Assembly (NCBI RefSeq): GCF_002896855.1
Contig: NZ_CP021850.1
Span: 521,665 to 585,664, forward strand
Reading direction: 5' to 3'
Origin: Clostridium thermosuccinogenes
GTDB taxonomy: Bacteria; Bacillota; Clostridia; Acetivibrionales; DSM-5807
Length of the DNA: 64,000 bases
Position numbers and translations under genes: made by a program. The notes beneath the pieces were generated by a model, which did no database searches, was not told the origin of the DNA, and saw only the letters and a program-made list of their open reading frames with translations. Position 1 is the first letter of the stretch. Each line of letters opens with the position of its first letter. This document shows positions 10,201 to 32,997 of this stretch, one piece after another.

Positions 10201-10622
10201 TCAGCAGCTCTGAGGGTGCGTTTTTGGACAGATACGACTACGAGGCCAATTTTGACAAGTTGCGGGATGGAAGCATTTCCGTAAAAGGTGGTTGGCGCTT
10301 ATATTCGAGCGGACCGGGAATATATTTAAGACAGCTGGTTTCCAATATTTTGGGCATCCGGTTTGAAAAGGACAGTTTGGTGATAGATCCTGTCATGCCT
10401 TGTCTTTTGGATGGATTGCAGGTTACCTTAAATTGCTTCGGCAGGGAAACCACATTTATATATAAGATTGCAGATGACCGGAAAGGAACGGTAAGGGTTT
10501 TGAGAAACTCCAGGGAGCTGGCCGGAAAGCCTGGCTGCAACGAATACCGGGGAGGTAAAATCGTCATCGACAAGCAGGAATTTTTGCAGGAAAATGGCCA
10601 TGTTGAAATATATCTGGATTGA
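7272..10622 (+). CDS. GH94/GH149/GH161-like glycoside phosphorylase (1116 aa)
   Basis: A large protein built as an N-terminal beta-sandwich followed by an (alpha/alpha)6 barrel, judged from family-like motifs. WGTRDVCQGPMEF (near residue 636) corresponds to the W-G-x-R-D-x-x-Q segment of GH94, and GDWDDTL (Asp764-Asp767) corresponds to the catalytic GDWND region of cellobiose phosphorylases. Those enzymes cleave a beta-glucoside with phosphate to give glucose 1-phosphate. The length of 1116 residues exceeds the roughly 800 of cellobiose phosphorylase and fits better with the beta-1,3-glucan phosphorylase families GH149 and GH161, but I cannot assign the family from sequence alone. It starts at GTG 7272 behind AAAGGAG. 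There is no signal peptide. It lies 57 nt after GH35 and 135 nt before GH3. Confidence 0.72.
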   Translation: MRLTQNDDIITFGKGEYVYSFLSTGDIFEFTCGNFLINEFQGSAMEGSANNIYLRIYKEGAIKFYPLLGISSKSRLSRGQNTLVYSGEVEGIAYTVTFHPADDGIWFWNVELCGSGVIVDVVYGQDIGVASKGGVLTNELYMAQYLGHRVFETENGYCVCSRQNQPQDGCFPYIQQGMIKGRAVGYSTDGMQFFGLSYKETQKPEALTGDLPNKNYQYEFSYIGLQSEKIVLEGKHSLTFYAIFRKNHEDAIRELEYTHEVVAAFDAFSKLMEEVEDCPQIKVRDEFGEPFASREWSVDEIDALFPERKLEEREDGQLLSFFTPKHSHVVLKQKELMVERPHGTIITTRINPDRVDNRLISSTNYIYGLFNAQMVVGNTSFHKFLSAARGMLNVLKNSGQRLYVKIDGKYRLLTLPSVYEMGMNYSRWFYSIGDDILRVTTYAAAERCDIILQVESMSNKAYDFIVTNQVVMGENEFQHPARVEEVGINRKTLRFRPDPEHWANNPYPGLHYDVHVSDPSYTLSDDRIFFEDGKSRNGTLVTLSIRQSSGFSVVMHGALEEEEEAATISYNFEDEWEKYYRFYRKISGGLQLKKEGEGSEKIEKLNETIWWFTHNALVHFAVPHGLEQPGGAAWGTRDVCQGPMEFFLTTQNYLLARSTLLTVFSHQTLQTGEWPQWFMFDRYPYNAGECHGDVVFWPLKCIGDYLHESGDYSILEEKIPYIDGENGRATLDAETLLEHIKRAFGSIEKRFLDGTHLISYAGGDWDDTLQPADESMKEKLVSSWTQALAYQVLTRLAETLSTVDEAFSGQLRYTARQIKKAFDDILVKDGVIAGFVCREDDGSFKHMLHPSDDSTSIHYRLLPMTRSIIAGLVDKEQAYRNVEVIDEHLSFPDGVRLMDRPARYDGGISHLFRRAEQAANVGREISLQYTHAHIRYIEAMAKLGESQKAWDALLKVNPIKIKDEVSNALTRQSNMYFSSSEGAFLDRYDYEANFDKLRDGSISVKGGWRLYSSGPGIYLRQLVSNILGIRFEKDSLVIDPVMPCLLDGLQVTLNCFGRETTFIYKIADDRKGTVRVLRNSRELAGKPGCNEYRGGKIVIDKQEFLQENGHVEIYLD

Positions 10623-17135: not shown

Positions 17136-17168
17136 AGCCTGAAGGGTTGGTCCACAACCCCTCAGGCT
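17136..17168. other. Strong hairpin at the 3' end of the ArsR-like regulator gene
   Basis: AGCCTGAAGGGTTG pairs with CAACCCCTCAGGCT with one mismatch; the 3' arm overlaps the stop codon of the minus-strand regulator. On the minus strand an A-rich rather than U-rich run follows, so it is not a standard intrinsic terminator for that gene. It may protect the mRNA 3' end or block antisense transcription. Confidence 0.5.
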
Positions 17169-18114
17169 ATCGGTCATTGTTGAACTTTGTTGCGTAATCC
17201 AGGCGCATAAGAATATTTTGCTGGTAGTCGCCAAACTTTTCGCCAAAAATAGTAATGCCTCCGACGTTTTCCGCATCTTCGCTTATACCTATCCGCACGC
17301 TGATGTAGTTCCCGTTTTTGAGATTCAGCTGATCTATCGTAACGTCCGACGACTGTTTTTCATCGATGAAGGAACCCTGAGAATTAACCTTCCAGGTTTT
17401 CAGCAGCCCGTATTGTGTATTTGAATCCGGCCACCAGGGTGGATTGAGCCTTCCTCTGCGGCCCCCCAGATCACCCGGGCTGGTCCATGTTCCAACAGCA
17501 ATGCCGTTGATCCATACGGTAATATCGGATGGCCAATTATTGCGGTAGTTGGGAGCTTCCGAGCAAATTTCCATGGACAGCTCAATGGATAGAGGGTCGC
17601 TATGGTGAAGAATGCTGTTGGAGAACCTATATTCTACATACCCCTTGCTGAACCACAGGATTTGGGCATCGGTGCGACGAGCATTGTAGAATCCGCTGGG
17701 ATTGTCGTCCGTGTCTATATATGCCCTTTCGCTGGAAATGCCGCAGGTCGGATATATTTCACAATCCACGTAGTTTCCAATAGGCATATTAATGTAAAAG
17801 TGATTGTCGAGAGTGCCGTTATCCGGGTGAGCAAGATGCAAATTCAGCACATCGATTTTGCGGCTGCACAGCTTCATTGAGCCTCGAACACCAGGCTGCA
17901 ATTCCGTCCTTATGAGATCGGCCTCTTCCAGTATCCTTACATTCATGGCAGCGGTGGAAACAGGTAGATCGAGCTTCTCTGCGATTTCATTAATATTGAA
18001 GCTGCCATAATTCAATAATTCAATTATATCAATCCTGCTTTTTGACGAAAGTGCTTTTGCGACCGCAAGAAGTTTATTTCCGTCTTCTATACCGATAGTC
18101 AATTCTTTAGGCAA
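17167..18114 (-). CDS. ArsR-like winged-helix regulator with a large C-terminal domain
   Basis: A 315-residue protein. The N-terminal 75 residues form an ArsR-type winged helix (ALSSKSRIDIIELLNYGSFN, then the recognition region INEIAEKLDLPVSTAAMNVRILEEADL). The remaining 235 residues are a Trp- and Gly-rich, probably beta-sandwich domain (NWPSDITVWINGIAVGTW, RRGRLNPPWWPDSNTQYG) that could bind a sugar ligand. The best start is TTG at 18114: GGAGGG lies exactly 6 nt upstream, whereas the in-frame ATG at 18129 overlaps that site. The gene is divergent from the 21.5-kb uptake operon, and the palindrome TGTAATATTACA recurs in the shared intergenic region, so it is the likely local regulator. Ligand specificity is inference. 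Confidence 0.8.
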   Translation of the reverse strand: MPKELTIGIEDGNKLLAVAKALSSKSRIDIIELLNYGSFNINEIAEKLDLPVSTAAMNVRILEEADLIRTELQPGVRGSMKLCSRKIDVLNLHLAHPDNGTLDNHFYINMPIGNYVDCEIYPTCGISSERAYIDTDDNPSGFYNARRTDAQILWFSKGYVEYRFSNSILHHSDPLSIELSMEICSEAPNYRNNWPSDITVWINGIAVGTWTSPGDLGGRRGRLNPPWWPDSNTQYGLLKTWKVNSQGSFIDEKQSSDVTIDQLNLKNGNYISVRIGISEDAENVGGITIFGEKFGDYQQNILMRLDYATKFNNDR

Positions 18115-18193
18115 ATATAATCCCTCCATTTTGTACTTAATTATATTATAATAGAAAATTATGCAATAAATCAATAATATTAACGATAAAATA

Positions 18194-18310: not shown

Positions 18311-18340
18311 TTGACAGATTATTGATACATATCATATAAT
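18311..18340 (+). promoter_or_regulatory. Promoter of the surface glycan-uptake operon
   Basis: TTGACA (18311-18316) and TATAAT (18335-18340) are both perfect, separated by 18 nt. The predicted start near 18347 leaves a leader of about 190 nt that holds three of the TGTAATATTACA-like sites. Confidence 0.75.
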
Positions 18341-18535: not shown

Positions 18536-21469
18536 ATGACCGCTAAAAAATCACTCAGGTTTCCTATCAGGCTGTTGGCAAGTTTTGTTGTTTTCGTGTT
18601 ATGTATACCACTTCTTGCAGGATTGACAAACGCTGCTGAGCTTGATTCAATACGATCTGAGATACCTGATCTTGAAAAACTCTATCTTTCTTTACCAGGC
18701 ATCCCGGAGAATGACTACTATATTTATAAAAGAAAATATGAAGACAAAAAGTACAAAGGTGAGGTTATTACATATCCCATAGAAAAACTGGTGAGTGGAC
18801 GCCAACTGGAAAACGGCGGCATACTCATCCCTTATAATGAGACGGTGGAGCTGAAGCTGGATGTCTCGCAAGAGGGTACTTATTTGATCGGTTTTTACTA
18901 TTGTACCGCGGACGATAATATTCTGCCCTCCGGCATTTCCATGAAAGTCAATGGGGAGTATCCCTTCCCGGAGATGCAGAGGCTGTCGGTCAGCGATACC
19001 TGGGTTGTGGAAAGAGAAGGATTCCAGCTTGACCGCTATGGCAATGAAGTGGTACCTATGCCGGTGAAAAGGCACGAATGGAAGCACACCTACTTATATG
19101 GGGAAGACCGTCTTTACAGCACACCAATGAGCGTTTATCTGCAAGAAGGTACAAATACCCTCACCATAACATGCACGGAAGGCGATCTGATCATAGGGGA
19201 TATCACCCTTTCGCCCGAAAAGCAGCTTGATGGCTATACGGCAGCCGGCAAGCCGGACGGGGATAACATAATCGTGATTGAAGCCGAGCATATGGACAGA
19301 AGAAACAGTCCCAATATTCGTCCGGACAGCATATTTGACACGAATCTGACGCCCTACAGCTCTACCAAAAAAATATTGAACACCGTGGCCGACTACTCCT
19401 TCAAAGCCGGTGGCAACAGGATAGAGTATGATTTTGAGATTGAAGAAGAGGGTTATTATTATATAGGTTTTAATTACCGTCAGAGCACGAAGGCCAACTT
19501 TCCGGTATTCAGAAATATCTATATAGATGGAGAAATTCCGTATAAAGAGTTCCAAAGTATGGCGTTCCCGTATTCCACGAAATACACCCGCCTTGTGGCA
19601 GCTACGGAGGAAGGCGAAAAGATGGCGGTTTACCTGGACAAAGGCAAGCATACCATCGCTATTGAGGTGTCCTTGGATAATGTCCGGGATGCCATAAAGA
19701 TACTTACCCGGGTCGTGAATGAAATGAATGACATGGCTCTGGATATCGGAAAAATCACAGGCGGAAATACGGAAAAATTCAGGGATTTCGTATTGGAAGA
19801 TTTCGATTTTGATATAGAAAGCAAGCTTAACCAATGGACGGAAATAATTCTGGATGTATATGACGCACTGGCTGTTTACAATCCCGGAGTAAAAAACATC
19901 GGTGAGTTATCTTCATTGAAAGTTGCCGCCAGAACCTTGCAGCAGCTGGCTAAAGAGCCCAATGACCTGCCCAAGAAGCTGGATGCCTTTTCTCAGGGCC
20001 CCAGTTCTGCAAGACAAAGCCTTACGACTATGATTGAGCTGCTTAACCAGAGTCCTTTGGGTTTAGATAAGATATTCATTTTCCAGGATGAACATCAGCT
20101 TCCAAAGCCTATAGGCTTTTTTGAGAAGATAGTGGAAAATGTAAAACGCTTTTTCTATTCCTTCAAACAGCAGGAATATGCTCCTACATATGACGCAAAC
20201 TCAGAAAACCTGCAGGTATGGGTGAGCAGGCCAAGACAGTATCTTGAGATAATCCAGAGGATGGCCGACACCGATTTCAAGGAGAAGTACGGCATAAATG
20301 TGGATCTTTCCATAATGCCGGATCAAAACAAACTGATCCTTTCCAACGCCTCGGGAAAATCTCCGGATATAGCCATGTCAATAGCATCAGGAATAACTTA
20401 TGATCTGGCAGTCCGCGGCGTATTGGCTGATATGAGGCAGTTTGACAATTTTAAGGAAGTAGCCAGAAGGTTTGCTCCGGGCATGCTGATTCCCGGCGTT
20501 TCTGAAAATGGGCTGTATGCTATTCCTGAAACCTTCAACTTCTGGGTGCTTTATTACAGGAAGGATATACTGGATTCCATGGGTCTTGAAGTGCCCGATA
20601 CCATGGAAGAAGTCCGCCAGATGCTGCCTCAGCTGCAGCGAAGAGGGCTGAACTTTAACAGTCATGTCTCCAATTTTATCGGTTCAAAGCCTTTTGCGGC
20701 TACAATACCTTTTATATATCAAAATGGAGGCCGGCTATTTGATGAAGATACGATGAAAAGCAGCTTGGATTCCAAAGAGGTTCTCAACGGAATGACAATG
20801 CTTACGGAAAATTACACCATATATAATATGCCCTATGAAGTGCAGAGCTTTTATCAAAGCTTCAGGGATGGAAGGATTCCGATTGGTATTTCCGATTATG
20901 GCATGTTCAATCTGCTGACCAATGCTGCTCCGGAAATTAAAGGGCTATGGGATGTAGCACCCTACCCGGGTGTGAAGGATGAGAACGGAGAAGTGCAGCG
21001 CTGGACTTTGGGGTCGGCGGAGAGCTGCGTGATATTTGAAAGCAGTGACAAAAAGGAAGAAGCATGGAAATTCCTCGACTGGTGGACATCTACCGAAGTT
21101 CAGACTGAATTTGCGTATACGCTCCAGTCCACCCTGGGAAATGAGTACTTGTGGAATTCCTCTAATCTGGAAGCGATGAAAAATACACCTTGGATTCGCA
21201 AACATGAGGCAATCCTCGAACAGGTTCAATGGACCCGGGAGCCTCCAAGAATCCTGGGGGGATACATGATAGAAAGAGAGCTTAGCAATGTCATCACCTC
21301 AGTGGTGATGGAAGGAGAAAATGTCCGTTCGGCTATGGATGAGGCAATAAAACGGATAAACCGGGAGATCAACAGGAAGCTGGAGGAGTTTGGATATATA
21401 GTCAACGGTGAAGTTGTAAAACCGTTTGTCGTACCGGATATAGATACTGTAAGGGAGTGGGTGGAGTAA
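18536..21469 (+). CDS. Solute-binding protein fused to two N-terminal carbohydrate-binding-like domains
   Basis: A 977-residue exported protein. A signal peptide ends near Ala33 (GLTNA), with no lipobox cysteine, unusual for a Gram-positive binding protein. Two beta-sandwich domains follow (about 65-230 and 245-395); the second begins [12 protein letters not shown], like CBM35/CBM6-type modules. A helical linker (about 400-545) leads to a family 1 extracellular solute-binding domain (about 556-965) with [20 protein letters not shown] and [17 protein letters not shown]. It should capture long sugars at the wall and pass them to the permeases. The ATG follows GGGGATGAG. It is the first gene of the operon, and the permease start follows its stop by 1 nt. 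How it is retained at the membrane is not evident. Confidence 0.85.
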
Positions 21470-21470
21470 A

Positions 21471-22415
21471 TTGAAAAGCGATTTGACGATTTCTACCAGA
21501 AAAGCCGAAAAACCAAATACAGCCCTGCGGAAGCCAGGGTTCCGTATAAATCCGGCGTTAGTGTTTTTACTGCCTTACGGAGTGCTTTTTACGGTGTTTA
21601 TAGTTATACCAGTCACACTGGCAATGGCTTTGTCCTTTACCAATTTCAATGCCGTGCAGTTTCCCCGGCTGACTTACTTTCTGAATTATATCAACCTGCT
21701 TACGCAGGATGCCATTTTTATGCAATACGTGCTTCCCAATACCTTGATATTTGCCTTGGTTGTCGGACCATGCGGATACATACTCTCATTTTTCCTGGCC
21801 TGGTCGCTGAGTCAGATAAGCAAGGTACCAAGGACAATACTGGCTCTTATCATCTACTCTCCGTCCATGACATCCGGCGTTACCATGGCGGTTATCTGGA
21901 GAATAATTTTCAGCGGCGACAGGATGGGTTACTTGAATAATCTTTTGCTGAGCCTGGGATGGATATCGGAGCCTATACAATTCTTACAGTCTCCTGACTT
22001 TCTCATGCCGATTATGATAATCGTCGCGCTATGGGGAAGCATGGGTGTCGGATTCCTGGCAATGCTGGCAGGAGTGCTGAACTATGATGTCAGTATTTAT
22101 GAAGCAGCCAGTATAGACGGCATACGCAACCGGTTCCAGGAGGTATTCTACATTACCATTCCGATGATGAAGCCCCAGATGCTGTTTGGTGCGGTGATGT
22201 CGGTGGTGAATACCTTTCAGGTCGGCAGCATCGGTGTGGCTTTGAGCGGTACCAATCCCACCCCCCAATATGCAGGACAGCTTATAGTCAATCATATTGA
22301 GGATTATGGTTTTATCAGGTATGAGATGGGATATGCTTCCGCTGTTTCGGTGGTGCTGCTGTGTATTATCTACGGAACATCCAGGTTTGCGAGAAGACTA
22401 TTTCGGGAGGGTTAA
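21471..22415 (+). CDS. Carbohydrate ABC transporter permease (MalF/UgpA type), first of four in the operon
   Basis: A 314-residue membrane protein with six predicted helices; the first lies at about 31-53 ([20 protein letters not shown]). The EAA loop is [18 protein letters not shown]. It is one half of a CUT1-type sugar channel. It starts at TTG 21471, one base after the preceding stop, with GGTGGAG upstream, so translation is coupled to the CBM-fused binding protein; that coupling suggests the two work together. Its MalG-type partner is not adjacent and may be the permease at 32125 or 27651. Confidence 0.88.
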
Positions 22416-22420
22416 TTCCC

Positions 22421-24466
22421 ATGAATAAAATTAGGGCTAAATCCAGATTTATAACTGCATTGCTCGCCTTTGGAATAGTGTTGTCATGCATCGGTATGGC
22501 TGCTCATGCTGCCAGTGCTCCTTATACCACATTGACGGAGGACTACAGAGGGAGGCTCGTAAGCAGCCAGGATGGCTACCTGCCGTTGAATACCATTACA
22601 AAGGTCGGAGATTATGAATTCAACAAGGCATTGGATATTTTCATTGATGATGATGACATCCTGTATATCGCTGACACCGGCAACGGGAGGATTATTGTCA
22701 GCACTCTGGAAGGGGAATTGATTTCCGTAATCGGTGAAGGCATCCTGACTGCCCCCAGCGGAATTTTTGTGGATCGTGAAGGAAACATTTATGCGGCTGA
22801 TCCCAGAAAGGAAAAGGTCTTCGTTTTCTCCCCCGATGGAGAATTAATACGCGAATATACAAAACCTGAAGGCTCTCTTTATGGCAAAAACAATCGTTTC
22901 GTACCTCAGAAGCTGGTGGTTGATGCTGCGGGAAGCTTATATGTCATATCCGAGGGAAATACAAACGGTATCGCCCAGTTGAGCAAGCAGGGAGAGTTTC
23001 TTGGATATTTCGGAGCCAATTATACTCCGCTTTTTATCCATGAAATAATCAGAAGGCTTACCTTTACAAAAGAGCAGAGGGAACAGCTTAAGCTAAATGT
23101 GCCTCCGTCCCCTAAAAACCTTACCATAGATGATAGGGGACTGGTGTATACCGTCACCCAGGGAGCTGGCACAAAAGGGTTGAAAAAGTTCAACATGGCC
23201 GGCATAAACATGCTGGACGATACCCTGCCGGACGAAAATATTACCGATGTGGCCATAGGGCAGATTGAGAACATTTTTGTAGTTTCCACCGAGGGATATA
23301 TTTACGAGTACTCCAGGGAGGGAGACCTGTTGTTCCTGTTCGGTGGCAGGGATGACGGTAAAAACCGCAGCGGTTTGTTCGTATCGGCTGCCGCTATTGA
23401 TGTGGACAAATCCGGACATTTGTATGTACTGGACACGGAAAGCAACAAGATTCAGATATTTGAAAAAACCGAGTATGCCAGCATAGTACATGAAGCTCTG
23501 AACCTCTATCAAGAAGGATATTATATTGAAAGCAAGGACCCCTGGGAGGAAGTGCTCCGTCAAAACAGCCTTTTTGACTATGCTTACAGGGGAATAGGGC
23601 AGGCTCATTACAAGCTGGAAAATTATGAACAGTCCCTTGCCGCTTTCAGGCTGGGAGGAGATAAGGCAGGATATTCCTCCTCCTTCTGGGAGGTAAGAAA
23701 CATATTCCTGAAGAATAACATGCTGAAAATTTTCCTTTTCCTGGTGCTGATATGGCTTGTTGTCAAGACTGTCAGGTTGCTTAACAGCATGTTTGGTTTG
23801 CTGGTACCGGTACAAAAGGCAATAGCCTCCTTCAGGGAAGTGTCGGTAGTACGTGAGCTGAGGTTTGTGTACTACGTGCCCAAAAACCCGGCAGACGCCT
23901 ATTACGGTATAAAAAGGGAAGGCAAGGTCTCAATATTGTCGTCCACCATATTGTATATCATCTTCTTTGTCATATACCTTGCTGATAAGTATTTTTCGGG
24001 ATTCCTTTTCAAAAAGGTGGCGGAAGGGCATTATGAACTGGCGACGGATATAGCCTCCGTATTTGGAGTTATTGGACTTTTTATCATCTGCAACAACCTC
24101 ATATCCTCCATCAGGGATGGTGAGGGGAAGCTTCGTGATATATACTGCTCCCTGGCTTATTCCATAATGCCGTATATATTTCTGAAGCCTGTGGCGATTG
24201 TATTGAGCCATGTGCTGACTTACAACGAAGCCTTTATCATAAATTTGATTAATATTGTGATCTATGCTTCCATAGCTGTACTGATTATTGTGATGATCAA
24301 GGAGATCCAAAATTATTCCCTCCGGGAGACTTTCAAGAATATCGCATTAACGTTGTTCACCATGTTGATTTTCGTCATCAGTGCAGTAGTTATTGTGGCT
24401 TTGGTCAATCAGGTAGTTGATTTTATTCTGTCCATCGCAAAAGAGGTGAATTATCGTGTCTCGTAA
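22421..24466 (+). CDS. NHL-repeat / TPR / Yip1-domain membrane protein
   Basis: A 681-residue protein with a signal peptide (cleavage near residue 28-31, AHAAS). An extracellular NHL-type beta-propeller follows (about 55-350) with repeats such as ALDIFIDDDDILYIADTGNGR, GIFVDREGNIYAADPRKEK and AIDVDKSGHLYVLDTESNK. Next come a short TPR-like segment (ALNLYQEGYYIESKDPWEEV, AYRGIGQAHYKLENYEQSL), a membrane helix near 435-455, and a C-terminal Yip1-like domain of about five helices. GGGAGGG lies 9 nt before the ATG at 22421; the permease ends 5 nt upstream. It overlaps the next gene by 11 nt. No function is established; its position inside a sugar-importer operon suggests a structural or sensing role at the cell surface. 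Confidence 0.8.
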   Translation: MNKIRAKSRFITALLAFGIVLSCIGMAAHAASAPYTTLTEDYRGRLVSSQDGYLPLNTITKVGDYEFNKALDIFIDDDDILYIADTGNGRIIVSTLEGELISVIGEGILTAPSGIFVDREGNIYAADPRKEKVFVFSPDGELIREYTKPEGSLYGKNNRFVPQKLVVDAAGSLYVISEGNTNGIAQLSKQGEFLGYFGANYTPLFIHEIIRRLTFTKEQREQLKLNVPPSPKNLTIDDRGLVYTVTQGAGTKGLKKFNMAGINMLDDTLPDENITDVAIGQIENIFVVSTEGYIYEYSREGDLLFLFGGRDDGKNRSGLFVSAAAIDVDKSGHLYVLDTESNKIQIFEKTEYASIVHEALNLYQEGYYIESKDPWEEVLRQNSLFDYAYRGIGQAHYKLENYEQSLAAFRLGGDKAGYSSSFWEVRNIFLKNNMLKIFLFLVLIWLVVKTVRLLNSMFGLLVPVQKAIASFREVSVVRELRFVYYVPKNPADAYYGIKREGKVSILSSTILYIIFFVIYLADKYFSGFLFKKVAEGHYELATDIASVFGVIGLFIICNNLISSIRDGEGKLRDIYCSLAYSIMPYIFLKPVAIVLSHVLTYNEAFIINLINIVIYASIAVLIIVMIKEIQNYSLRETFKNIALTLFTMLIFVISAVVIVALVNQVVDFILSIAKEVNYRVS

Positions 24467-26708
24467 AAGGATAGGGGTTCGTGCAATGAGTATCGTGGTA
24501 TCTGCAGTTGTTATAGCTCTGGTTGCCGTTTTGGCTGTTTTGGTTTATGTGACCACCAGAAATGCAGTTACCACCGGAAAGAGCGTGTCCGCCAAGGATT
24601 TTTCCCTTTTGGATACCAGCCTTCTTTCCCGCAATATTTCGGATAAACCTTACATAGCAGCTGAAAATGACAGGCTGCAGATGATATTGGATCCTGTTTC
24701 CCTGGGAATAACCCTCGTGGATAAGGCTTCCGGGGAAAGGCTGGAATCCGTACATGGCACCGAGGAGGATAAGTTGAATGCATCCTGGAAAGGGTTTCTC
24801 GGTTCCGGTGTATCGATAGAATTTTTCAATGGGGATTCACCTTCTTTGGAGCGGGCTGATATGTTCAACCACAAGCCTGAGGTTTATATAGAAAACAGGG
24901 ATGATGGTTTCAAAGCCACTATTGTGTATGAAAAACTCAAGATTGCACTGGACGTCATTGCAGAGCTTACGGAAGACGGGATGAAAGTTACCGTTCCGGC
25001 TGACAGCATTTATGAGGGAGAGCAGTACCGGCTTGCCTCCGTGTATTTGTATCCTTTCATGGGAGCAACCCGATTGGGGGAAGAAAAAGGCTATATGCTG
25101 CTGCCGGAGGGATCAGGAGCCCTTATCGACCTGGAGGATAATAAAGGACGGTTCCGTGCGCCGTATTCCAAGAAAGTGTACGGGGACAATATAGCTGTCG
25201 ATCGGGAGATATCGCAGCAGTACAACCGTCCGAACGTCAAAGCGCCGGAGCAGATCATCATGCCGATTTTTGGAATGGCGCATACCGACAGGAAGATCGC
25301 TTTGCTGGGTATCGCAGAAGAAGGGAAATATAACTGCCAGTTACTGGCATATCCCAACGGTGTCTCAACAAATTATAACTGGATTACAATTAAATATTTG
25401 TACCGTGAGGACTACATTACACAGGTTTCCAGAAGCAGCGGCATACGTGCGGCGCCAAAAGAAGGAGACTTCCGCGATGTAGGGGTAAAATTTACGGTGC
25501 TCACAGGTGAAAAAGCAAATTACTCCGGAATGGCTGAAGCATACCGGAATTATCTGGTGGATAACGGGATAATTGAAAAAAAGAATACTGATTACAATAT
25601 AAGGCTGGACTTTTTAGGGGCTGAGAGCAAAGAGTGGATTGTGATGAAAACCATAGTGCCCATGACTACCATTTCACAGATGGAGACAATGCTAAAAGAG
25701 CTCATGGAGTACGGTGTAAAGGATATTTTGCCCACCTACATGGGATGGCAGAAAGGAGGCCTTTCTCTCAGCTATGGTGACAACGGATATAAGGTGGAAG
25801 AAAAGCTTGGCAGCTTGAGGCAACTGGACACCCTGGCCAAAGAGCTTAAGGATCAGGGTATAAATTTAATGCTGTACCAGGATTTTCTCCTGGCCAATAC
25901 TTCCCGGAATTATGACACCCAGTCGGACATTGTAAAGAATTTGAGCAAAAATCTGGCCAAGAAGCTGACCAATAAGCGTTTATACCCTTACTACTATTAT
26001 CTGACACCTAAACGCTCCCTGTCCGATGCCCGGAAATATATTGAAAAGTTTGAGGGTACGGATTTGAAGGGCATCACTTTTGGGTCTGTCGCCAACACAT
26101 TGTTTTCATACTTTTCCGGCGGAAACATATACAGCCGTCAGGAAACTAAAAAAGCGGCGGACACCATGATGGAGGGCTTCGGAGAGTTTAGCAAGGCCAT
26201 GATCCAACCCTTTGACTACATGTGGAAATATGCGGATTACTACTTTGATATACCGCTTTATGCGTCCAACTACAATTATGTGAGCAGAGAAATACCGTTT
26301 TTGCCCATGGTACTCAAAGGATATATGCCCTACTATGCCGATTATGCCAACTTTGAACCCAATAAAAACAGCTTCCTGCTGAAAATGGTGGAGTATGGAG
26401 CATATCCCTCCTTCATTCTGACATGGGAAGAGTCGTCGGAATTGAAGGATACCAATTCATCGGACATATTTACGTCAAATTATGATGACTTTAAGTCCAT
26501 GGTGGTGGAGTATTACAACCTGCTTAAGGAGATAAGCGATAAAACCGACGGAACTGCAATAACAAGGCATGATATAATTGCGGACGACGTCGTAAAGGTT
26601 CAGTATGAGAACGGAGTGGAGATTTTAATAAATTATTCCAACCGGGAATTTGAATACAAACAAGATATGATTGCTCCGCAGTCATATAAGGTATATGAGG
26701 TGAATTAG
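24456..26708 (+). CDS. Membrane-anchored DUF5696-like protein
   Basis: A 750-residue protein with one N-terminal membrane helix (about 11-33) and a large predicted extracellular part. It starts at GTG 24456 behind AAAAGAGGTG, overlapping the preceding gene by 11 nt, so the two are translationally coupled. The ectodomain is rich in aromatic residues and has a barrel-like middle part (DILPTYMGWQKGGLS, GINLMLYQDFLLANTSRNYD, PFDYMWKYADYYF) that could be a glycosidase-like fold, but no catalytic pair can be assigned. I recognise it as the DUF5696 type seen beside sugar permeases in Paenibacillus and Clostridia; its function is unknown. Extracellular glycan binding or cleavage is inference. Confidence 0.68.
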   Translation: MSRKRIGVRAMSIVVSAVVIALVAVLAVLVYVTTRNAVTTGKSVSAKDFSLLDTSLLSRNISDKPYIAAENDRLQMILDPVSLGITLVDKASGERLESVHGTEEDKLNASWKGFLGSGVSIEFFNGDSPSLERADMFNHKPEVYIENRDDGFKATIVYEKLKIALDVIAELTEDGMKVTVPADSIYEGEQYRLASVYLYPFMGATRLGEEKGYMLLPEGSGALIDLEDNKGRFRAPYSKKVYGDNIAVDREISQQYNRPNVKAPEQIIMPIFGMAHTDRKIALLGIAEEGKYNCQLLAYPNGVSTNYNWITIKYLYREDYITQVSRSSGIRAAPKEGDFRDVGVKFTVLTGEKANYSGMAEAYRNYLVDNGIIEKKNTDYNIRLDFLGAESKEWIVMKTIVPMTTISQMETMLKELMEYGVKDILPTYMGWQKGGLSLSYGDNGYKVEEKLGSLRQLDTLAKELKDQGINLMLYQDFLLANTSRNYDTQSDIVKNLSKNLAKKLTNKRLYPYYYYLTPKRSLSDARKYIEKFEGTDLKGITFGSVANTLFSYFSGGNIYSRQETKKAADTMMEGFGEFSKAMIQPFDYMWKYADYYFDIPLYASNYNYVSREIPFLPMVLKGYMPYYADYANFEPNKNSFLLKMVEYGAYPSFILTWEESSELKDTNSSDIFTSNYDDFKSMVVEYYNLLKEISDKTDGTAITRHDIIADDVVKVQYENGVEILINYSNREFEYKQDMIAPQSYKVYEVN

Positions 26709-26709
26709 G

Positions 26710-27651
26710 ATGGGCAAAAAAAGAAGGCTTCGCCTGGGTGTGACAACCCGACGGGAAATGAAAGGATATCTGTTTATTCTGCCATGGTTGGTGGGCTTTG
26801 GAATATTCTTTGCATATCCCATGTTTCAGTCGTTTATCTACAGCATCAGCAGCGTGAGGATAACCGCCAAGGCCAGGATAGTGAAACCTGTGGGTTTTGA
26901 CAACTATGTGTATATATTCACAAAAGATATATATTTTGCAGAACGGTTGAGAGCATTTTTCCTCAATACGATTTTCAGCTTGCCGGTCATCCTTGTTTTT
27001 TCACTGATGATTGCCATGCTGATAAACCAGAAGATAAAATTCAAGGGGTTTTTCAGAACATTGTTCTTCTTACCCATAATAGTTGTCAGCGGGCCGGTGC
27101 TTGAAAGGCTGATCTCCGATGGAGCGACCACAATACCGATGATAGAGCAGTATGGAGTATATGACATCATAAATGAAGTGGTGCCATATATGCTTGTGGA
27201 GCCGATAAGCTACCTCTTCAGCCAGCTGATACTAATCCTCTGGTATTCCGGCATACCTATACTTATATACCTTGCAGGATTGCAAAAGATAGACATTAAC
27301 CTTTATGAAGCCGCTTTGATCGATGGTGCATCCTCCTGGGTGGTGTTTTGGAAAATAACTTTGCCTTCATTAAAAGGGATAATATTGATCAACGCCATAT
27401 ACACTCTGGTTTTTTTGGGAACATCGGAGATTAATGAGGTGATAATCCTGATCAAAAATAACATGCTGAATCCCAACACCGGCTTCGGCATAGCTTCGGC
27501 AATGGCATGGACCTTCACCGTCGGTCTTGGTCTCATAATGGTAATTATATATTTCATAGGCGGCAGGGAAAAACCTGCTGTCGTGCAGAAAAAGCTTCCG
27601 GCCAAAAAGCCGGAGAAAAAAGCAAAAAAAATACTGCCAGTCAGGGGGTGA
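26710..27651 (+). CDS. Carbohydrate ABC transporter permease (MalF/UgpA type), second
   Basis: A 313-residue permease with its first helix at about 20-40 (GYLFILPWLVGFGIFFAYPM) and EAA motif YEAALIDGASSWVVFWKITL. The ATG follows the DUF5696 stop after one base. Its C-terminal tail is unusually lysine- and proline-rich (KKLPAKKPEKKAKK), likely cytoplasmic. Its stop codon overlaps the ATG of the next permease, so these two are the most probable channel pair. Confidence 0.9.
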   Translation: MGKKRRLRLGVTTRREMKGYLFILPWLVGFGIFFAYPMFQSFIYSISSVRITAKARIVKPVGFDNYVYIFTKDIYFAERLRAFFLNTIFSLPVILVFSLMIAMLINQKIKFKGFFRTLFFLPIIVVSGPVLERLISDGATTIPMIEQYGVYDIINEVVPYMLVEPISYLFSQLILILWYSGIPILIYLAGLQKIDINLYEAALIDGASSWVVFWKITLPSLKGIILINAIYTLVFLGTSEINEVIILIKNNMLNPNTGFGIASAMAWTFTVGLGLIMVIIYFIGGREKPAVVQKKLPAKKPEKKAKKILPVRG

Positions 27652-28655
27652 TGAGGTTGAATATTTCTGCTCTTATAGATAGGCACAGGATGGATAGGTA
27701 TATAAATAAAGCCAAGAAGGCGTTGCTCGGTTCCAGAGAAAAAACCGGAATCCTGTTCACAATCTTTGTTTATACCATGCTGATATCCCTGGGGTTTATT
27801 TATCTCTATCCCATGCTTCATATGTTTGTTACCAGCTTTATGTCCCTGGATGATCTGCTGGATGAGTCGGTGCGATGGATTCCGACCCATATTTCACTGG
27901 AAAACTATATTGAAGCCTTCCGGGTTATGAAGTTCAAAACAACTATAGGTCCGACCATCCTGCTGACGGTCATACCTTCCCTCTGCCAGACTGTGGTGTG
28001 CGCAGTGACAGGATACGGGTTTGCCAGATATCGCTTCAAAGGGAAGTCCATCATTCTCGTGCTTGTGCTTTTGACCTTTGTCATACCTCCTCATGTTATG
28101 ATGGTACCCAGATATCTGATGTATACGGACTACAAGATGATAGGCAGCATAGGTGTCCTGCTTTATCCGGCTATATTGGGCCAGGGATTGAACAGCGCCA
28201 TATTCATTCTGATATTTACACAATTTTTCAGACAGACACCGGTTTCGCTGGATGAGGCTGCAAGGGTGGATGGCGCCGGTGAGCTGAGAATTTTTCTGAC
28301 AATTGCCGTACCTCTGGCAGTGCCGGCGTTTATAGTATCCATTCTGTTTTCTTCTGTGTGGTATTGGAATGAGACCTATTTCAGCTCTCTCTACTTAGGC
28401 AGCTCCAACATAGGAAACCAGAATACTGTTACTACAATTCTCATGGAGCTGAGCAGGTTTGAGGACAGCTACAAAAAATATGTACAGCAGGTTGCAGGGT
28501 ACTGGGGAGCAGGCGGGTCTGTAGAATCCATCGCCAATGAGGCTATTCGCATGGCAGGTACCATGATCAGCATACTGCCTCTCCTGATTGTTTACTTCCT
28601 GCTGCAGAAGCATTTTGTAGAGAGCATAGAACGTACAGGCATAACGGGAGAATAA
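27651..28655 (+). CDS. Carbohydrate ABC transporter permease (MalG type), third
   Basis: A 334-residue permease with EAA loop DEAARVDGAGELRIFLTIAV. It starts at the ATG overlapping the previous stop (TGATG) with AGGGGG just upstream; a longer frame exists from 27507 but lies wholly inside the previous gene. It pairs by position with the preceding MalF-type permease. It is the last gene before the IS110 insertion that separates it from the second binding protein. Confidence 0.9.
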   Translation: MRLNISALIDRHRMDRYINKAKKALLGSREKTGILFTIFVYTMLISLGFIYLYPMLHMFVTSFMSLDDLLDESVRWIPTHISLENYIEAFRVMKFKTTIGPTILLTVIPSLCQTVVCAVTGYGFARYRFKGKSIILVLVLLTFVIPPHVMMVPRYLMYTDYKMIGSIGVLLYPAILGQGLNSAIFILIFTQFFRQTPVSLDEAARVDGAGELRIFLTIAVPLAVPAFIVSILFSSVWYWNETYFSSLYLGSSNIGNQNTVTTILMELSRFEDSYKKYVQQVAGYWGAGGSVESIANEAIRMAGTMISILPLLIVYFLLQKHFVESIERTGITGE

Positions 28656-28900
28656 CCATTTTACTGCTTATGATGGCTTTTAAGCCAATATGATATAACC
28701 CGGAAATATCCGGCCATTATTAAAAAAAAGACCAGCTAATTAAAGTCAAGAGCTTTTTTTGAAAAATAAAAGAATTTTTCAAAAAACACATGAGCTAAAA
28801 AAGGCATGACAACAAGACCACCCAGGTGAAGTAGACATAAAATAGCTGGTCCAAAATAGTAAGTTGCTCTTTGAAAACTAAACATCAAGTAACAGTACTA
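28656..28900. other. Non-coding left flank of IS110 copy 1
   Basis: About 245 nt without a gene, part operon spacer and part IS end. GACCAGCTA (28730-28738) and TAGCTGGTC (28843-28851) are inverted copies that would enclose a structured RNA of about 120 nt. The exact element boundary cannot be read from one copy. Confidence 0.45.
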
Positions 28901-30420
28901 TTAAGCTGCTGTATGCTTTGCTGCAAGATTCTTCGCATGTTCCTGAGGGCTACGTAGCTGATAAGGCTTTCTATCCCTAAGAACAGCAAAAATATAATTA
29001 ACAAGCTTACGCATAACAGCTCCTAAGGCCACTTTTTTAGGCTTGTTCTGGCATTTGTTTTTGTAATATTCCATCAGTACAGGGTTGCAAGCTGTTTTGT
29101 CACGCTTAGTGCGGATATTAGCAAGAGCAATTGTGAAAAGTACCCTGCGAAGCAGCCTTGACCCCCTTTTTGACATCTTGTTTTGTGTGCCGGTAAACTC
29201 TCCGGACTGCATTACAGAGGGGTCAATGCCGAAATAAGCAACTAGCTTGCCTGGCTTTGAAAAAGCTGAAAAGTCGCCAATTTCAGCCAGAATGGTAACA
29301 GCAGAGATAAGTCCTATACCTGGAATGCTTTGTAGAAGCTCGAGAGTCAGTGCCAGCATGGGTATGTCCTTTGCCATATCTTCAGCAATCAATGAACGAA
29401 TGGCTTTGAGGACTTTCTCAAGGTTTTCCTCCAAGGTTTTAATCATAGAGATATACACCCCAAGCATGGCAATATTTGAAGAGTTATTAATGCTCAAAGG
29501 TGCAAATTCTCTGGCCTTGGAGACCAAAAGCTCATACTTTGCAGTTGACCACTTAAGGCTTCTGCGGGAATTCTTTTGTATCAGTGCAATCAACTTGTTT
29601 CTGTTGGCTTTAAGAATATGCACAGGCGTAGGATATTTTTCTAATACTGCGAGAGCAGCCTTTGAAAAGATGTTAGGGAATACATCCTTGAAGTTTAGCA
29701 TGAGTTGGTCAACAATACCTGTAAGCCTGTTTTTGTAGGCAGTAAGTTCGTCAGAGAGCTTGTAGTACTGTCGGCAAAGGCTTCGCAGACATTCAATATC
29801 TTCATCTGGGATATTAGTAGTTTTAAGCTCCTGAAATCTGTATAGCAGGGCAATTTTCCGGGCATCAACTTTATCATTTTTCACTTTCCTGATTCCAATA
29901 TTTTTGATAGAATCAGTTTGGATGGGGTTTATGATGGAAACCTCAAATCCAGCTTTACAAAGTGAATGGAAAAGGATTTTGTGATAGTGCCCGGTGGATT
30001 CCATGACGACGAAAGGCCTAGAATCAAAGTCCTTTTCCGTTTTTTTCAGTAATTTAACGGCTCTTTCAACGTCAGAACTGGAATCATGGCGGATCTTCAT
30101 GCGGGCAATTACTTCATTGGATGGAGAAAGAATTGCCATCTCACTAAAGAATTTACCTACATCGATTCCTGCCATAGGTCTGAAATTCATAAAAAATGCC
30201 TCCTTTACAAGATGAATGGACTTAAAAGTCTCCATTCCTTCCCATGTAAGCAAACAACCTTGCATGTGACACGAGGAACCAGCTTTAAGCTGGCCTCAAC
30301 CAGCCAAATCATGTAGACTTACCGGAATGGATAAATACTCTTTTTTACGGGTAATCGGCCCGCTAAGGTCCGTCCCAGGAGGTGAAACACACACCTTCCA
30401 AGTCCGGAAAATATTATACA
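28730..30420 (-). mobile_element. IS110-family insertion sequence, copy 1 (boundaries approximate)
   Basis: It comprises the recombinase gene at 28901-30190 and long non-coding flanks on both sides. It lies inside the glycan-uptake operon, between the third permease and the second binding-protein gene, and is oriented against operon transcription. IS110 elements make no or minimal target duplication and lack classical terminal inverted repeats, so the ends given are estimates. Confidence 0.7.
28901..30190 (-). CDS. IS110-family transposase (DEDD recombinase), copy 1
   Basis: A 429-residue recombinase. The RuvC-like N-terminal domain has AGIDVGK (Asp10), VVMESTGHYH (Glu) and KNDKVDARKIA (two Asp), the DEDD set. 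The C-terminal Tnp_20 domain has SIPGIGLISAVTILAEIGD and SKRGSRLLRR with the conserved serine region. The start at 30190 follows AAAGGAGG; an in-frame ATG at 30265 has no ribosome site. It appears intact. The protein differs clearly from the other two IS110 recombinases in the window, so they are separate arrivals. Confidence 0.93.
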   Translation of the reverse strand: MNFRPMAGIDVGKFFSEMAILSPSNEVIARMKIRHDSSSDVERAVKLLKKTEKDFDSRPFVVMESTGHYHKILFHSLCKAGFEVSIINPIQTDSIKNIGIRKVKNDKVDARKIALLYRFQELKTTNIPDEDIECLRSLCRQYYKLSDELTAYKNRLTGIVDQLMLNFKDVFPNIFSKAALAVLEKYPTPVHILKANRNKLIALIQKNSRRSLKWSTAKYELLVSKAREFAPLSINNSSNIAMLGVYISMIKTLEENLEKVLKAIRSLIAEDMAKDIPMLALTLELLQSIPGIGLISAVTILAEIGDFSAFSKPGKLVAYFGIDPSVMQSGEFTGTQNKMSKRGSRLLRRVLFTIALANIRTKRDKTACNPVLMEYYKNKCQNKPKKVALGAVMRKLVNYIFAVLRDRKPYQLRSPQEHAKNLAAKHTAA

Positions 30421-30606
30421 TGATTGTCAAAGTTCAGGCCAACAGATGCTGGCATAATGGCTAAGATGTGAAGCCGGATGATGTGCTTGATGTTTGGAAA
30501 AGTATGAAGCTTAAAATGTTATGTTAACTATAAAAATTGATGGGTCAAACAGTGGCTTTGGTCACTGATTTAATACAATATTAATTGTACAAGGAGGAGT
30601 AAAATT
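30191..30606. other. Non-coding region: IS110 copy 1 upstream flank and leader of the second binding-protein gene
   Basis: No gene is visible. The first ~230 nt belong to the IS upstream flank and hold a perfect short hairpin (CCAGCTTTAAGCTGG, near 30281-30295) plus further inverted segments; this is where a bridge RNA would lie in the IS110 group. The last ~100 nt contain a small hairpin (CAGTG...CACTG near 30551-30568) and AAGGAGGAG before the ATG at 30607. Confidence 0.45.
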
Positions 30607-32049
30607 ATGACTAAAAAGTTAATTGCGCTACTGCTGGTATTGGTCATGACACTTTCAGTGATGACGGCCTGCAGCAAGGGGGATGATGGTAAATCTTCAA
30701 CTACACCCTCATCTACTCCTGCAGCTGATGCACCAGCTACATCCGGTGACGAATCTTCAGGGGATGCTGGAGATGCTGGAAAGGATGCCGGAGGATTGCC
30801 GCCCATGACTACCGACAACATCACCTTGACTTATGCTTGCTGGGGATTAGCGGAAAAAGGTGAAATCGAGGTAAGGGATAAGCAGTTGGCGGCTTTTATG
30901 GAAGCTTACCCGAACATCAAAGTGGAATTCGTTGAAATTGAACAGGGCTCCTGGGACGAGGCTCTGTATAACAGAGCGGCAGCAGGTACTTTGCCCGATG
31001 TATTCTGGGTGTTCTCGGTTACCAACGCCGTAAAAAACCAGTGGGCACTGGATGTAACCGATATGTTTGATGCCGACCCGGATACTCAGGAAATATATCC
31101 CGGTATCAGGGAGATTTCCAAGATCAATGGCAGAAGATACCATGTTCCTGGCATCATGTTCCCCCATATGATATTCCTGAACAAAACCTTATTTGACAAG
31201 TATAATGTGCCGCTTCCAAGTTACGACTGGACTTTCGAGGATTTCAAAAAGATAGCTGAGGAGATCACCCATCCTGAAGAGTATTATTTTGGAACTTCCA
31301 ACCCAATATATTACGATCTGATGGATGCATGGTACAATGGCACTACCCGTTATGGATGGGACGGACAAAACTACAACCTTGGTCAGACTTGGGTTGATGC
31401 CTGGAATTTAAGACTTGACTGGATTGACCGAAAAGTAGTGGAATGGATGAGTGCAGAGGAAAAAGAGCAGGTATTGGGAGATCCTTCTGCATGGCCTCCA
31501 GGAAAAGGGCGTGTTGCTATGCATATAGACTGGCCCTGGACTATAGCTCACTTTGAAGATGTCGTATCTCCTGAAACAGGATGTGAGTTCCTCTACTATC
31601 CGCTGCCGCAAGGACCTACAGGACGTCAGATGGCTATAGTTGATAACAGCGTTATCTCTGCGACCACCCAGCATCCAAGAGAGGCATGGGAACTGCAGAA
31701 ATGGACTACATGGGGAGTGGAGGCTTGCAAAAACCGTTTCGAAGGATATAAAGAGGCTGGAGCACCCCTGTCCCGTATGCCTGTAATAACCAACAAGGAA
31801 GTTTGGCAGCAGATCATTGATGCCGCTCCTAATGAAGCCCTGAAAGCATTCTATGAGCATTTGACCGATATCGTACCTTCTCCGTGGCCTATTGCTCCGG
31901 GTTGGGGCGAATTTGAAGCGTGGATGGCTGAACAGGATATGTGGGGTAAGCTGGAGAGACGTGAAGTGCGTCCTGAAGATGTTGTGAAAGAGCTGAATGA
32001 CAAACTGAACGAGTTCAAGCAGCAGTATATCGTTTCCATTGATTATTAA
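30607..32049 (+). CDS. Sugar ABC transporter substrate-binding lipoprotein, second
   Basis: A 480-residue lipoprotein with lipobox MTAC (Cys22) and a Ser/Thr/Ala/Asp-rich linker to about residue 60. The mature domain is a family 1 solute-binding protein (ITLTYACWGLAEKGEIEVRDK, GRRYHVPGIMFPHMIFLNKTLF, REAWELQKWTTWG), rich in Trp and Tyr as expected for an oligosaccharide site. A strong AAGGAGGAG precedes the ATG. It would feed one of the permease pairs. The hairpin downstream (32058-32087) would raise its expression over the following permease. The IS110 copy upstream separates it from the rest of the operon. Confidence 0.9.
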   Translation: MTKKLIALLLVLVMTLSVMTACSKGDDGKSSTTPSSTPAADAPATSGDESSGDAGDAGKDAGGLPPMTTDNITLTYACWGLAEKGEIEVRDKQLAAFMEAYPNIKVEFVEIEQGSWDEALYNRAAAGTLPDVFWVFSVTNAVKNQWALDVTDMFDADPDTQEIYPGIREISKINGRRYHVPGIMFPHMIFLNKTLFDKYNVPLPSYDWTFEDFKKIAEEITHPEEYYFGTSNPIYYDLMDAWYNGTTRYGWDGQNYNLGQTWVDAWNLRLDWIDRKVVEWMSAEEKEQVLGDPSAWPPGKGRVAMHIDWPWTIAHFEDVVSPETGCEFLYYPLPQGPTGRQMAIVDNSVISATTQHPREAWELQKWTTWGVEACKNRFEGYKEAGAPLSRMPVITNKEVWQQIIDAAPNEALKAFYEHLTDIVPSPWPIAPGWGEFEAWMAEQDMWGKLERREVRPEDVVKELNDKLNEFKQQYIVSIDY

Positions 32050-32057
32050 TTATAATC

Positions 32058-32087
32058 AGTCATACGGGGATTCTTCCCTGTATGACT
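32058..32087 (+). terminator. Hairpin / partial terminator after the binding-protein gene
   Basis: AGTCATACGGGG and CCCTGTATGACT form a 12-bp stem (one G-U pair) with a 6-nt loop, followed by GCATCTTGTTATTTTT. The U-rich run is displaced, so partial termination or 3'-end protection is likely, a common arrangement between binding-protein and permease genes. Confidence 0.6.
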
Positions 32088-32124
32088 GCATCTTGTTATT
32101 TTTATCAGGTTTGGGGGTCGCAGT

Positions 32125-32997
32125 ATGAGCGTAAGACAAATAACCAGAATAAATCCGAAGGGGTTTCACAGAAGCCAGTTAAAAATTTATGCCTATTTAT
32201 TGCCCTTGGCAATATTTATGCTGTTGCCTATTTTATATATATTGAACCACGCTTTTAAGCCAGTTAATGAGTTGTTTGCCTTTCCGCCCAGGTTTTTTGT
32301 AGAGCACCCTACGCTGGAAAACTTCAGGAAGCTGTTTCAGGCGACGCAGCAGTCAGGCATCCCCATCGGACGGTATGTTTTCAACAGCATCGTGGTGACG
32401 GTTTTGGTGGTGTTTCTCACCGTGCTGATAAGCACCATGGCGGGTTTTGCCCTTTCAAAGCTGAAATTCAAGGGAAAAAACGTCTTGTTTGAAATCAATA
32501 CCCTGGCTTTGATGTTCGTACCTGTGGCAGTCATGATCCCGAGGTATTTGACCATTGACAAGCTTCATATCATGGATACTTATCTGGCTCACATACTTCC
32601 GTTGTTATCCATGCCGGTAGGACTTTTCCTCATAAAACAGTTTATTGACCAGGTTCCGGATGAACTGATAGAAGCAGCGGTGGTGGACGGTGCTTCAATT
32701 TATAAAATATATTATAAAATCATCATACCGATGATCCGGCCGGCAATAGCTACAGTGGCTATATTGTCCTTTCAGTCGGTATGGAACAACACTGAAACCT
32801 CCACTTTGTTTGTAACTCAGGAGAGCATGAGAACTTTAGCTTTCTTTATGAACTCCCTGTCTTCCAACACAAATGTTGTGGCAGGACAGGGTATTGCGGC
32901 AGCTGCGGGCCTTATCATGTTCATACCCAATATTGTCCTCTTCATAATACTTCAGAGCAATGTGATGAACACTATGGCATACTCCGGCATGAAATAA
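32125..32997 (+). CDS. Carbohydrate ABC transporter permease (MalG type), fourth
   Basis: A 290-residue permease with EAA loop IEAAVVDGASIYKIYYKIII and a first helix at about 24-43. The ATG follows GGGGGTCGCAGT, a weak ribosome site. It completes a second MalF/MalG set with the permease at 21471, although the pairing cannot be proven from order alone. No ATPase gene is present in the operon. Confidence 0.9.
   Translation: MSVRQITRINPKGFHRSQLKIYAYLLPLAIFMLLPILYILNHAFKPVNELFAFPPRFFVEHPTLENFRKLFQATQQSGIPIGRYVFNSIVVTVLVVFLTVLISTMAGFALSKLKFKGKNVLFEINTLALMFVPVAVMIPRYLTIDKLHIMDTYLAHILPLLSMPVGLFLIKQFIDQVPDELIEAAVVDGASIYKIYYKIIIPMIRPAIATVAILSFQSVWNNTETSTLFVTQESMRTLAFFMNSLSSNTNVVAGQGIAAAAGLIMFIPNIVLFIILQSNVMNTMAYSGMK

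Follow-up and report, generated by a model that had tools for sequence, protein, structure and literature searches.

An NHL-TPR-Yip1 and DUF5696 gene pair in conserved CUT1-type sugar-import modules of Gram-positive bacteria

What is the role of two surface protein genes that lie between the permease genes of a sugar importer, neither of them being a described part of such systems? This question is raised by a stretch of 64,000 nucleotides from Clostridium thermosuccinogenes (contig NZ_CP021850.1, positions 521,665 to 585,664; referred to as the window), in which a gene encoding an NHL-TPR-Yip1 protein is followed by one encoding a DUF5696 protein. The two reading frames share exactly 11 nt, and a plausible ribosome-binding site, AAGAGGTGAATTATCGTG, was found. 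The stop codon of the upstream permease gene (PermA) is located 5 nt ahead of the NHL-Yip1 start, and the downstream permease gene (PermB) begins 1 nt past the DUF5696 end. A first-pass annotation of this DNA had reported the overlap and the coupling to permeases on both sides, and had suggested a surface complex presenting or trimming long glycans for import. The observation was confirmed including its coordinates, while the interpretation is supported in part. The gene pair is the core of a conserved sugar-import module that is widespread in Gram-positive bacteria, and no chance insertion. Whether the pair is also the accessory core of a large importer for glycans of plants and microbes, an ATP-binding cassette (ABC) system of CUT1 type, is, in our judgement, an even call.

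Linkage of the gene pair to CUT1 permeases

The module in the window (18536-32997) comprises a first solute-binding protein (SBP1), PermA, NHL-Yip1, DUF5696, PermB, PermC, an inserted IS110 element, a second solute-binding protein (SBP2) and PermA2. Loss of PermA2 from the operon was considered and rejected, since the gene was found past the IS110 element. As SBP2 is located there as well, the three permeases and one binding protein counted initially become four and two, based on role profiles and Pfam. The module has two features of CUT1 importers: family-1 binding proteins are encoded together with the permeases (SBP1 and SBP2, both over the Pfam cut-offs), and an EAA loop, of which two permeases per transporter are expected to have one each, is present in all four permeases. 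PermB, PermC and PermA2 score over the Pfam cut-off, and PermA was recognized by NCBIfam and role profile only; its EAA loop, with a spacing one residue longer than the scan pattern, was read by eye.

DUF5696 was found in 37 of the 398 genomes of a phylum survey (approximately one in ten). An NHL-Yip1 profile matched all of these 37 genomes and one further genome of the same survey, the latter by a partial NHL match (Fisher p ~2e-51, relatedness ignored). In this lone genome without DUF5696 the match covers profile positions 10-200 and is located in a frame of 284 aa (G302:C103:7907-8497). In total, 131 distinct DUF5696 loci were compiled from the phylum survey and from named genomes (80 loci, picked by similarity to one subgroup); 17 of these loci plus the window served as training set for the role profiles. 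NHL/Yip1 is encoded directly upstream of DUF5696 in all 128 testable distinct loci, and PermB-PermC directly downstream in all 120 testable ones. The first-pass annotation had named occurrence of the pair mostly without sugar permeases as evidence against its proposal; since none of the testable loci has the pair apart from CUT1 permeases, the gene-neighbourhood survey does not refute it.

Most loci add a second permease pair and a binding protein fused to a carbohydrate-binding module (CBM). PermA/PermA2 were found at 98 of 100 loci with a low threshold, which inflates this number; with stricter gene calls, a strong PermA was present in 28 of 40 phylum-survey loci. Several clades (L084, L086, L087, L091, L092, L094, L104 and L118) have a short form with NHL-Yip1, DUF5696, PermB and PermC. 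The genome of C. thermosuccinogenes harbors seven full DUF5696 copies, and the six others are all accompanied by a full module. In 35 of the 128 loci, NHL and Yip1 make up one fused protein, and in most others they are encoded by two adjacent genes; the fusion is a Rosetta-stone sign of interaction. Two named plasmids have the same order in their NCBI annotation, with the products 'NHL repeat-containing protein', 'YIP1 family protein' and 'DUF5696 domain-containing protein'. The pairwise distances of DUF5696 correlate with those of NHL (0.96), PermB (0.95), PermC (0.95), Yip1 (0.92), PermA (0.84) and PermA2 (0.82). The higher values for PermB and PermC, together with the short-form clades, place the accessory proteins with PermB-PermC.

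A contig labelled Anaerolineaceae (Chloroflexota, L179) has a module layout nearly as in Clostridiales contigs (e.g. L173), owing to either transfer or mis-binning. Two records from a phage collection (MT835587.1 and MT835600.1, 'Bacteriophage sp.', human faeces, unannotated) encode DUF5696 relatives and are more likely bacterial fragments.

Folds and catalytic positions of the two proteins

The NHL-TPR-Yip1 protein scores over the Pfam cut-offs for NHL (1.7e-11; 44 bits, cut-off 20), SGL (1.6e-7) and Yip1 (PF04893, 4.8e-10; 40 bits, curated cut-off 28.6). In the AlphaFold2 model (predicted local distance difference test, pLDDT, 87.6), an N-terminal signal helix is followed by a six-bladed propeller (residues 50-347, Z 31 to NHL propellers), helical repeats and a membrane part. 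The TPR match is below the Pfam cut-off, and the model has helical pairs in this region. The membrane helices start at approximately residue 430 and comprise about six transmembrane (TM) segments, some of which are located in the Yip1 match (residues 488-655). The beta-propeller joined to a Yip1-like membrane domain, as described before, was thus borne out.

The second protein is a member of DUF5696 (PF18952; 1.1e-170, 569.6 bits with a cut-off of 25.6, profile positions 4-612 of 612) with a single N-terminal TM helix (residues 12-30) and an ectodomain of approximately 714 residues. The earlier description of a large ectodomain on one helix holds, while the attribute "aromatic-rich" was rejected, the composition being ordinary (12.6% F+W+Y, compared to 7-14% in other long open reading frames of the window). 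The ectodomain, which had been left featureless, could be assigned to the fold of glycoside hydrolase (GH) family 129 by structure comparison. The AlphaFold2 model (pLDDT 91, predicted template modelling score, pTM, 0.91) has this fold over its full length (Foldseek E 8e-34 to 5opq), with the three domains and the catalytic TIM barrel that characterize GH129. It aligns with NagBb (5wzq) at Z 28.5 (VIA) and a root-mean-square deviation of 3.8 over 565 residues (span 65-749), and with ZgGH129 at Z 28.3. A profile of 78 DUF5696 sequences compared with solved structures gave ~1e-9 for NagBb and 3e-12 for ZgGH129. The assignment was made from structure libraries, so that families unlisted there are possible as well.

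The catalytic columns were mapped by profile alignment of the 78 DUF5696 sequences with L020 (approximately 12% identity), a true GH129 protein (2e-144 to NagBb) with an unbroken alignment to the DUF5696 profile through both catalytic residues. Further GH129 proteins of the phylum were looked for with L020 and none came up, although an empty result of this search is no evidence of absence. At the acid/base Glu, which we take to be E478 as the second catalytic residue of NagBb, the columns (584 and 585) hold Gly, Ala or Pro, with D+E in 7 and 0 of 78 sequences, respectively, and Q584 and P585 in the window copy. At the nucleophile Asp, corresponding to D435, which belongs to the catalytic pair of NagBb (PMC5698469), Arg is found in 40 and D+E in 7 of 78 sequences; the adjoining column is acidic in 51 of 78, and the window copy has G543 and S544. 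Both positions are located just after modelled barrel strands (539-542 and 579-583). The acid/base column also takes E517 of ZgGH129 by pairwise alignment. Mutation of E517 gives an inactive enzyme, and the corresponding paper itself does not equate this residue with a NagBb catalytic residue (PMC5698469).

No acid is present at either GH129 catalytic position of the window copy, so that the search for an acidic catalytic pair proposed in the first-pass annotation, made here by profile alignment, yielded no GH129 pair, and trimming of glycans is therefore unlikely. Several non-acidic residues on the pocket side are kept (W431 in 74, N586 in 71, Y588 in 70 and N632 in all 78 sequences; also R561), with Phe at the N586 column of the window copy despite its conservation. 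According to model and alignment, DUF5696 is most likely a type II membrane protein with a GH129-fold ectodomain lacking the GH129 catalytic pair. We consider it most likely that the window copy is no glycosidase of GH129 type; other members of the family could achieve catalysis by other means. A non-catalytic surface subunit, which might either hold and hand over glycan or stabilize the permeases, fits these predictions best.

A putative surface scaffold and competing explanations

In a large importer of the kind considered here, the two permease pairs (PermA-PermA2 and PermB-PermC) and both binding proteins would be served by a three-part membrane-surface assembly consisting of the secreted NHL propeller with its TPR-like helices, the Yip1 membrane domain and the DUF5696 pseudo-glycosidase ectodomain. 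In the mechanism with the best support, the Yip1 domain would dock on PermB-PermC and keep the assembly together. Propeller and dead glycosidase barrel would form an extracellular scaffold above the permeases, which might bind, non-catalytically, chains exceeding the reach of an ordinary binding protein; SBP2 and PermB-PermC would then receive these chains. SBP1 with its fused CBMs and PermA-PermA2 would act on the same substrate, and ATP would be supplied through a shared ATPase of the MsmK/UgpC type, whose gene is located elsewhere. In C. bescii, an MsmK-like ATPase is known to be shared (PMC8579813).

Family-1 binding proteins, EAA-loop permeases, the lack of an ATPase in the operon and surrounding genes for carbohydrate-active enzymes (CAZymes) are common to the module and to CUT1 importers of the MalEFG, MsmEFG and XuaABC type. 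The module differs from these by two permease pairs and two binding proteins per module, and by the conserved NHL-TPR, Yip1 and DUF5696 parts, which are undescribed for CUT1 importers in the literature found. ABC import of large decorated oligosaccharides in Gram-positive bacteria is established by the Xua system of R. cellulolyticum, which imports large arabinoxylo-dextrins; the available part of that paper describes none of these accessory proteins (PMC9675976). No paper mentioning DUF5696 or describing the module was found in a literature search covering few subscription journals, and neither NHL nor Yip1 was found when looked for in a C. bescii regulon paper. The families of the module are already named in databases, and the module is an unstudied variant of CUT1 importers. 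DUF5696 shares its three-part fold and a distant similarity (profile E 1e-9 to 3e-12) with GH129 (NagBb, ZgGH129/DagB) and GH101. It is unlike these in its TM anchor, the Gly/Ala/Pro acid/base column, the mostly Arg nucleophile column and the obligate ABC permease neighbour.

Several points weigh against the scaffold. The larger distance correlation can mirror similar rates instead of contact, and PermA-PermA2 and PermB-PermC could belong to two separate transporters that are encoded in one operon. No ATPase is encoded within the window module; across all loci, few ATPase-like frames were found by motif scan, and ugpC is located directly upstream of the module in P. cellulosilyticus. The residue mapping relies on a profile alignment of low identity that is backed by the strand positions of the model, not by coordinates. 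Finally, acids specific to DUF5696 (D552 in 68, D610 in 67 and E646 in 74 of 78 sequences) may allow other chemistry in other members. An active glycosidase with a rebuilt active site (e.g. D552 with D610), trimming at the membrane before import, would make use of these acids and agree with the closest fold being that of active GH129 enzymes, and some members (e.g. L033 and L034) have Asp at the nucleophile column. We consider it quite improbable: the acid/base column is non-acidic in nearly all members, D552 and D610 match no GH129 catalytic residue in the profile alignment, and a catalytic pair is expected to be invariant among paralogues, whereas D552 and D610 vary and are replaced by Tyr and Ser in the window copy, in which E646 is the only one of the three acids kept.

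The main rival to glycan binding is a role of NHL-Yip1 and DUF5696 purely in assembly or stability of the permeases, with no glycan contact, which we regard as unlikely. SLC3 heavy chains (4F2hc and rBAT) are type II proteins with a single helix and a dead GH13-fold ectodomain, and partner eukaryotic amino-acid exchangers. DUF5696, a single-helix type II protein with a degenerate glycosidase fold, has the same layout; this is a functional analogy and no homology is claimed, and the folds (GH13 versus GH129) and partners (eukaryotic exchangers versus a bacterial ABC importer) differ. YknW, a Yip1-family protein of Bacillus, modulates the assembly of the ABC transporter YknXYZ (PMC4887032) and is the one functional precedent that was found in which a bacterial Yip1 protein acts with an ABC transporter. 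The Yip1 part of the module matches YknW by family and gene context; YknXYZ, however, is an exporter related to MacAB, and the paper on YknW describes neither an NHL-TPR ectodomain nor a DUF5696 partner (PMC4887032). A pure assembly role is also in line with the strict one-to-one linkage to PermB-PermC, but a pure chaperone would have no need of the residues kept near the strand ends of the GH129 active-site face (W431, N586, Y588 and N632), and glycan-binding domains are present in the neighbouring binding proteins. Very unlikely, in our view, is a glycan sensor reporting substrate or flux, for instance to adjoining two-component systems. Genes for a histidine kinase and a response regulator adjoin the module in Butyrivibrio fibrisolvens pNP243, whereas an ArsR-type regulator and no kinase adjoins that in the window; thus, the type of regulator varies and the core is constant. 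The core also has no signalling domain. Hitch-hiking in the operon without functional coupling is hardly credible in view of the complete linkage on both sides, the co-occurrence in 37 of 37 genomes and the correlated divergence, and no point in its favour was found.

A further-reaching version of the scaffold, in which pseudo-glycosidase and propeller/Yip1 parts thread long glycans to a four-permease, two-binding-protein assembly and represent a new class of ABC importer, appears rather doubtful. If true, Gram-positive bacteria would have in it a counterpart to SusCD systems as regards role, and bacteria a parallel to SLC3 with its dead-glycosidase heavy chains. With a dead glycosidase as transporter subunit, the GH129 fold would be put to a use that is new in bacteria. 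A fold is now assigned to a 600-residue domain of unknown function, and the module offers a small gene set for deletion and purification studies. It is carried, among others, by Lachnospiraceae of gut and rumen, by Paenibacillus and by Clostridia that degrade plant cell walls, and it bears on how Gram-positive bacteria, having no outer membrane, win long glycans from competitors ('selfish uptake').

Gene neighbourhood and substrate

Table 1. Features of the import module and its surroundings in the window.
Feature	Position	Strand	Basis and remarks
Promoter-like site TTGACA-18-TATAAT, 12/12	18311..18340	+	Consensus scan alone; upstream of module
SBP1, family-1 solute-binding protein, 977 aa	18536..21469	+	Pfam SBP_bac_8 3e-21, residues 579-861
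PermA, UgpA/GlcT-like CUT1 permease	21471..22415	+	NCBIfam GlcT 5e-15 (under equivalog cut-off); role profile 451 bits
NHL-TPR-Yip1 gene	22421..24466	+	ATG start, 681 aa, one fused protein
DUF5696 gene	24456..26708	+	GTG start, 750 aa
PermB, CUT1 permease, EAA loop EAALIDGASSWVVFWKITLP	26710..27651	+	Pfam BPD_transp_1 2.3e-6; role profile 345 bits
PermC, UgpE-like CUT1 permease, EAA loop EAARVDGAGELRIFLTIAVP	27651..28655	+	BPD_transp_1 6e-14; role profile 395 bits
IS110-family element between PermC and SBP2	28725..30596	-	~1.9 kb; ends approximate, from common span of other copies
IS110 transposase	28901-30265	-	Pfam DEDD_Tnp_IS110 7.6e-33
SBP2, second solute-binding protein, lipobox-like MTACSKG	30607..32049	+	Pfam SBP_bac_1 8.6e-25
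Terminator/attenuator-like hairpin, 14 pairs, SBP2-PermA2 gap	32057..32088	+	Consensus scan alone
PermA2, UgpE-like PermA partner	32125..32997	+	Role profile PermA2 384 bits, PermC 121

The N-terminus of SBP1 consists of two CBM35/CBM6-like beta-sandwich domains followed by a helical linker, with profile matches to CBM35/CBM6 structures (5x7g, 5.6e-7; 2w47, 3.7e-5; 2vzp, 0.01), in agreement with the CBM-fused binding protein noted in the first-pass annotation. The start of PermC shares 1 nt with the PermB stop. Relatives of the module also encode a solute-binding protein after PermC. PermA2 is displaced in the window, its usual place being directly after PermA, and its closest relatives are the PermA2 proteins of L089 and L033 (64%).

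The genes flanking the module across the loci encode enzymes of GH10, GH26, GH28, GH30, GH35, GH42, GH43, GH76, GH13, GH113 and GH130, CBM65 proteins, and pectate or alginate lyases. As these CAZymes are of many kinds, the substrate probably differs between copies, and the seven copies in one genome together with the varied neighbours speak for a general device whose substrate varies. GH43 and GH2 genes are located after the module in the window and point loosely to hemicellulose or pectin side chains. A specific role in the uptake of arabinoxylan, the glycan named earlier for growth tests, received no specific support and was set aside in view of the wide range of enzymes encoded nearby. In L209 (Paenibacillus cellulosilyticus NZ_CP054609.1), four LLM-class flavin-dependent oxidoreductases and an NADPH-dependent oxidoreductase are encoded after the module, which has aldo/keto reductases, not CAZymes, on its flanks. 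By analogy, this set recalls oxidative desulfonation of sulfo-sugars and suggests an unusual substrate.

An ArsR-type helix-turn-helix regulator with a long C-terminal domain is encoded at 17167-18174 (minus strand), divergent from the module across the promoter-like site at 18311-18340. Sugar regulators of ArsR type (ArbA) were proposed in C. bescii (PMC8579813). The IS110 element of the window has nine more near-identical full-length copies in the genome, plus two diverged ones; one copy (99.9%) is also located near the paralogous module L033, downstream of it (G000:C1:3271182-3273060). Approximately 330 nt of non-coding DNA are located ahead of the IS110 transposase in the window, and IS110 elements can encode a guide RNA in such DNA. 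A second glycan locus of the window encodes a beta-1,2-oligoglucan phosphorylase-like protein (SOGP/GH94, 7272-10622) with GH3, GH35/42 (GLMA) and sulfatase neighbours, and adjoins another CUT1 permease pair (937-2939).

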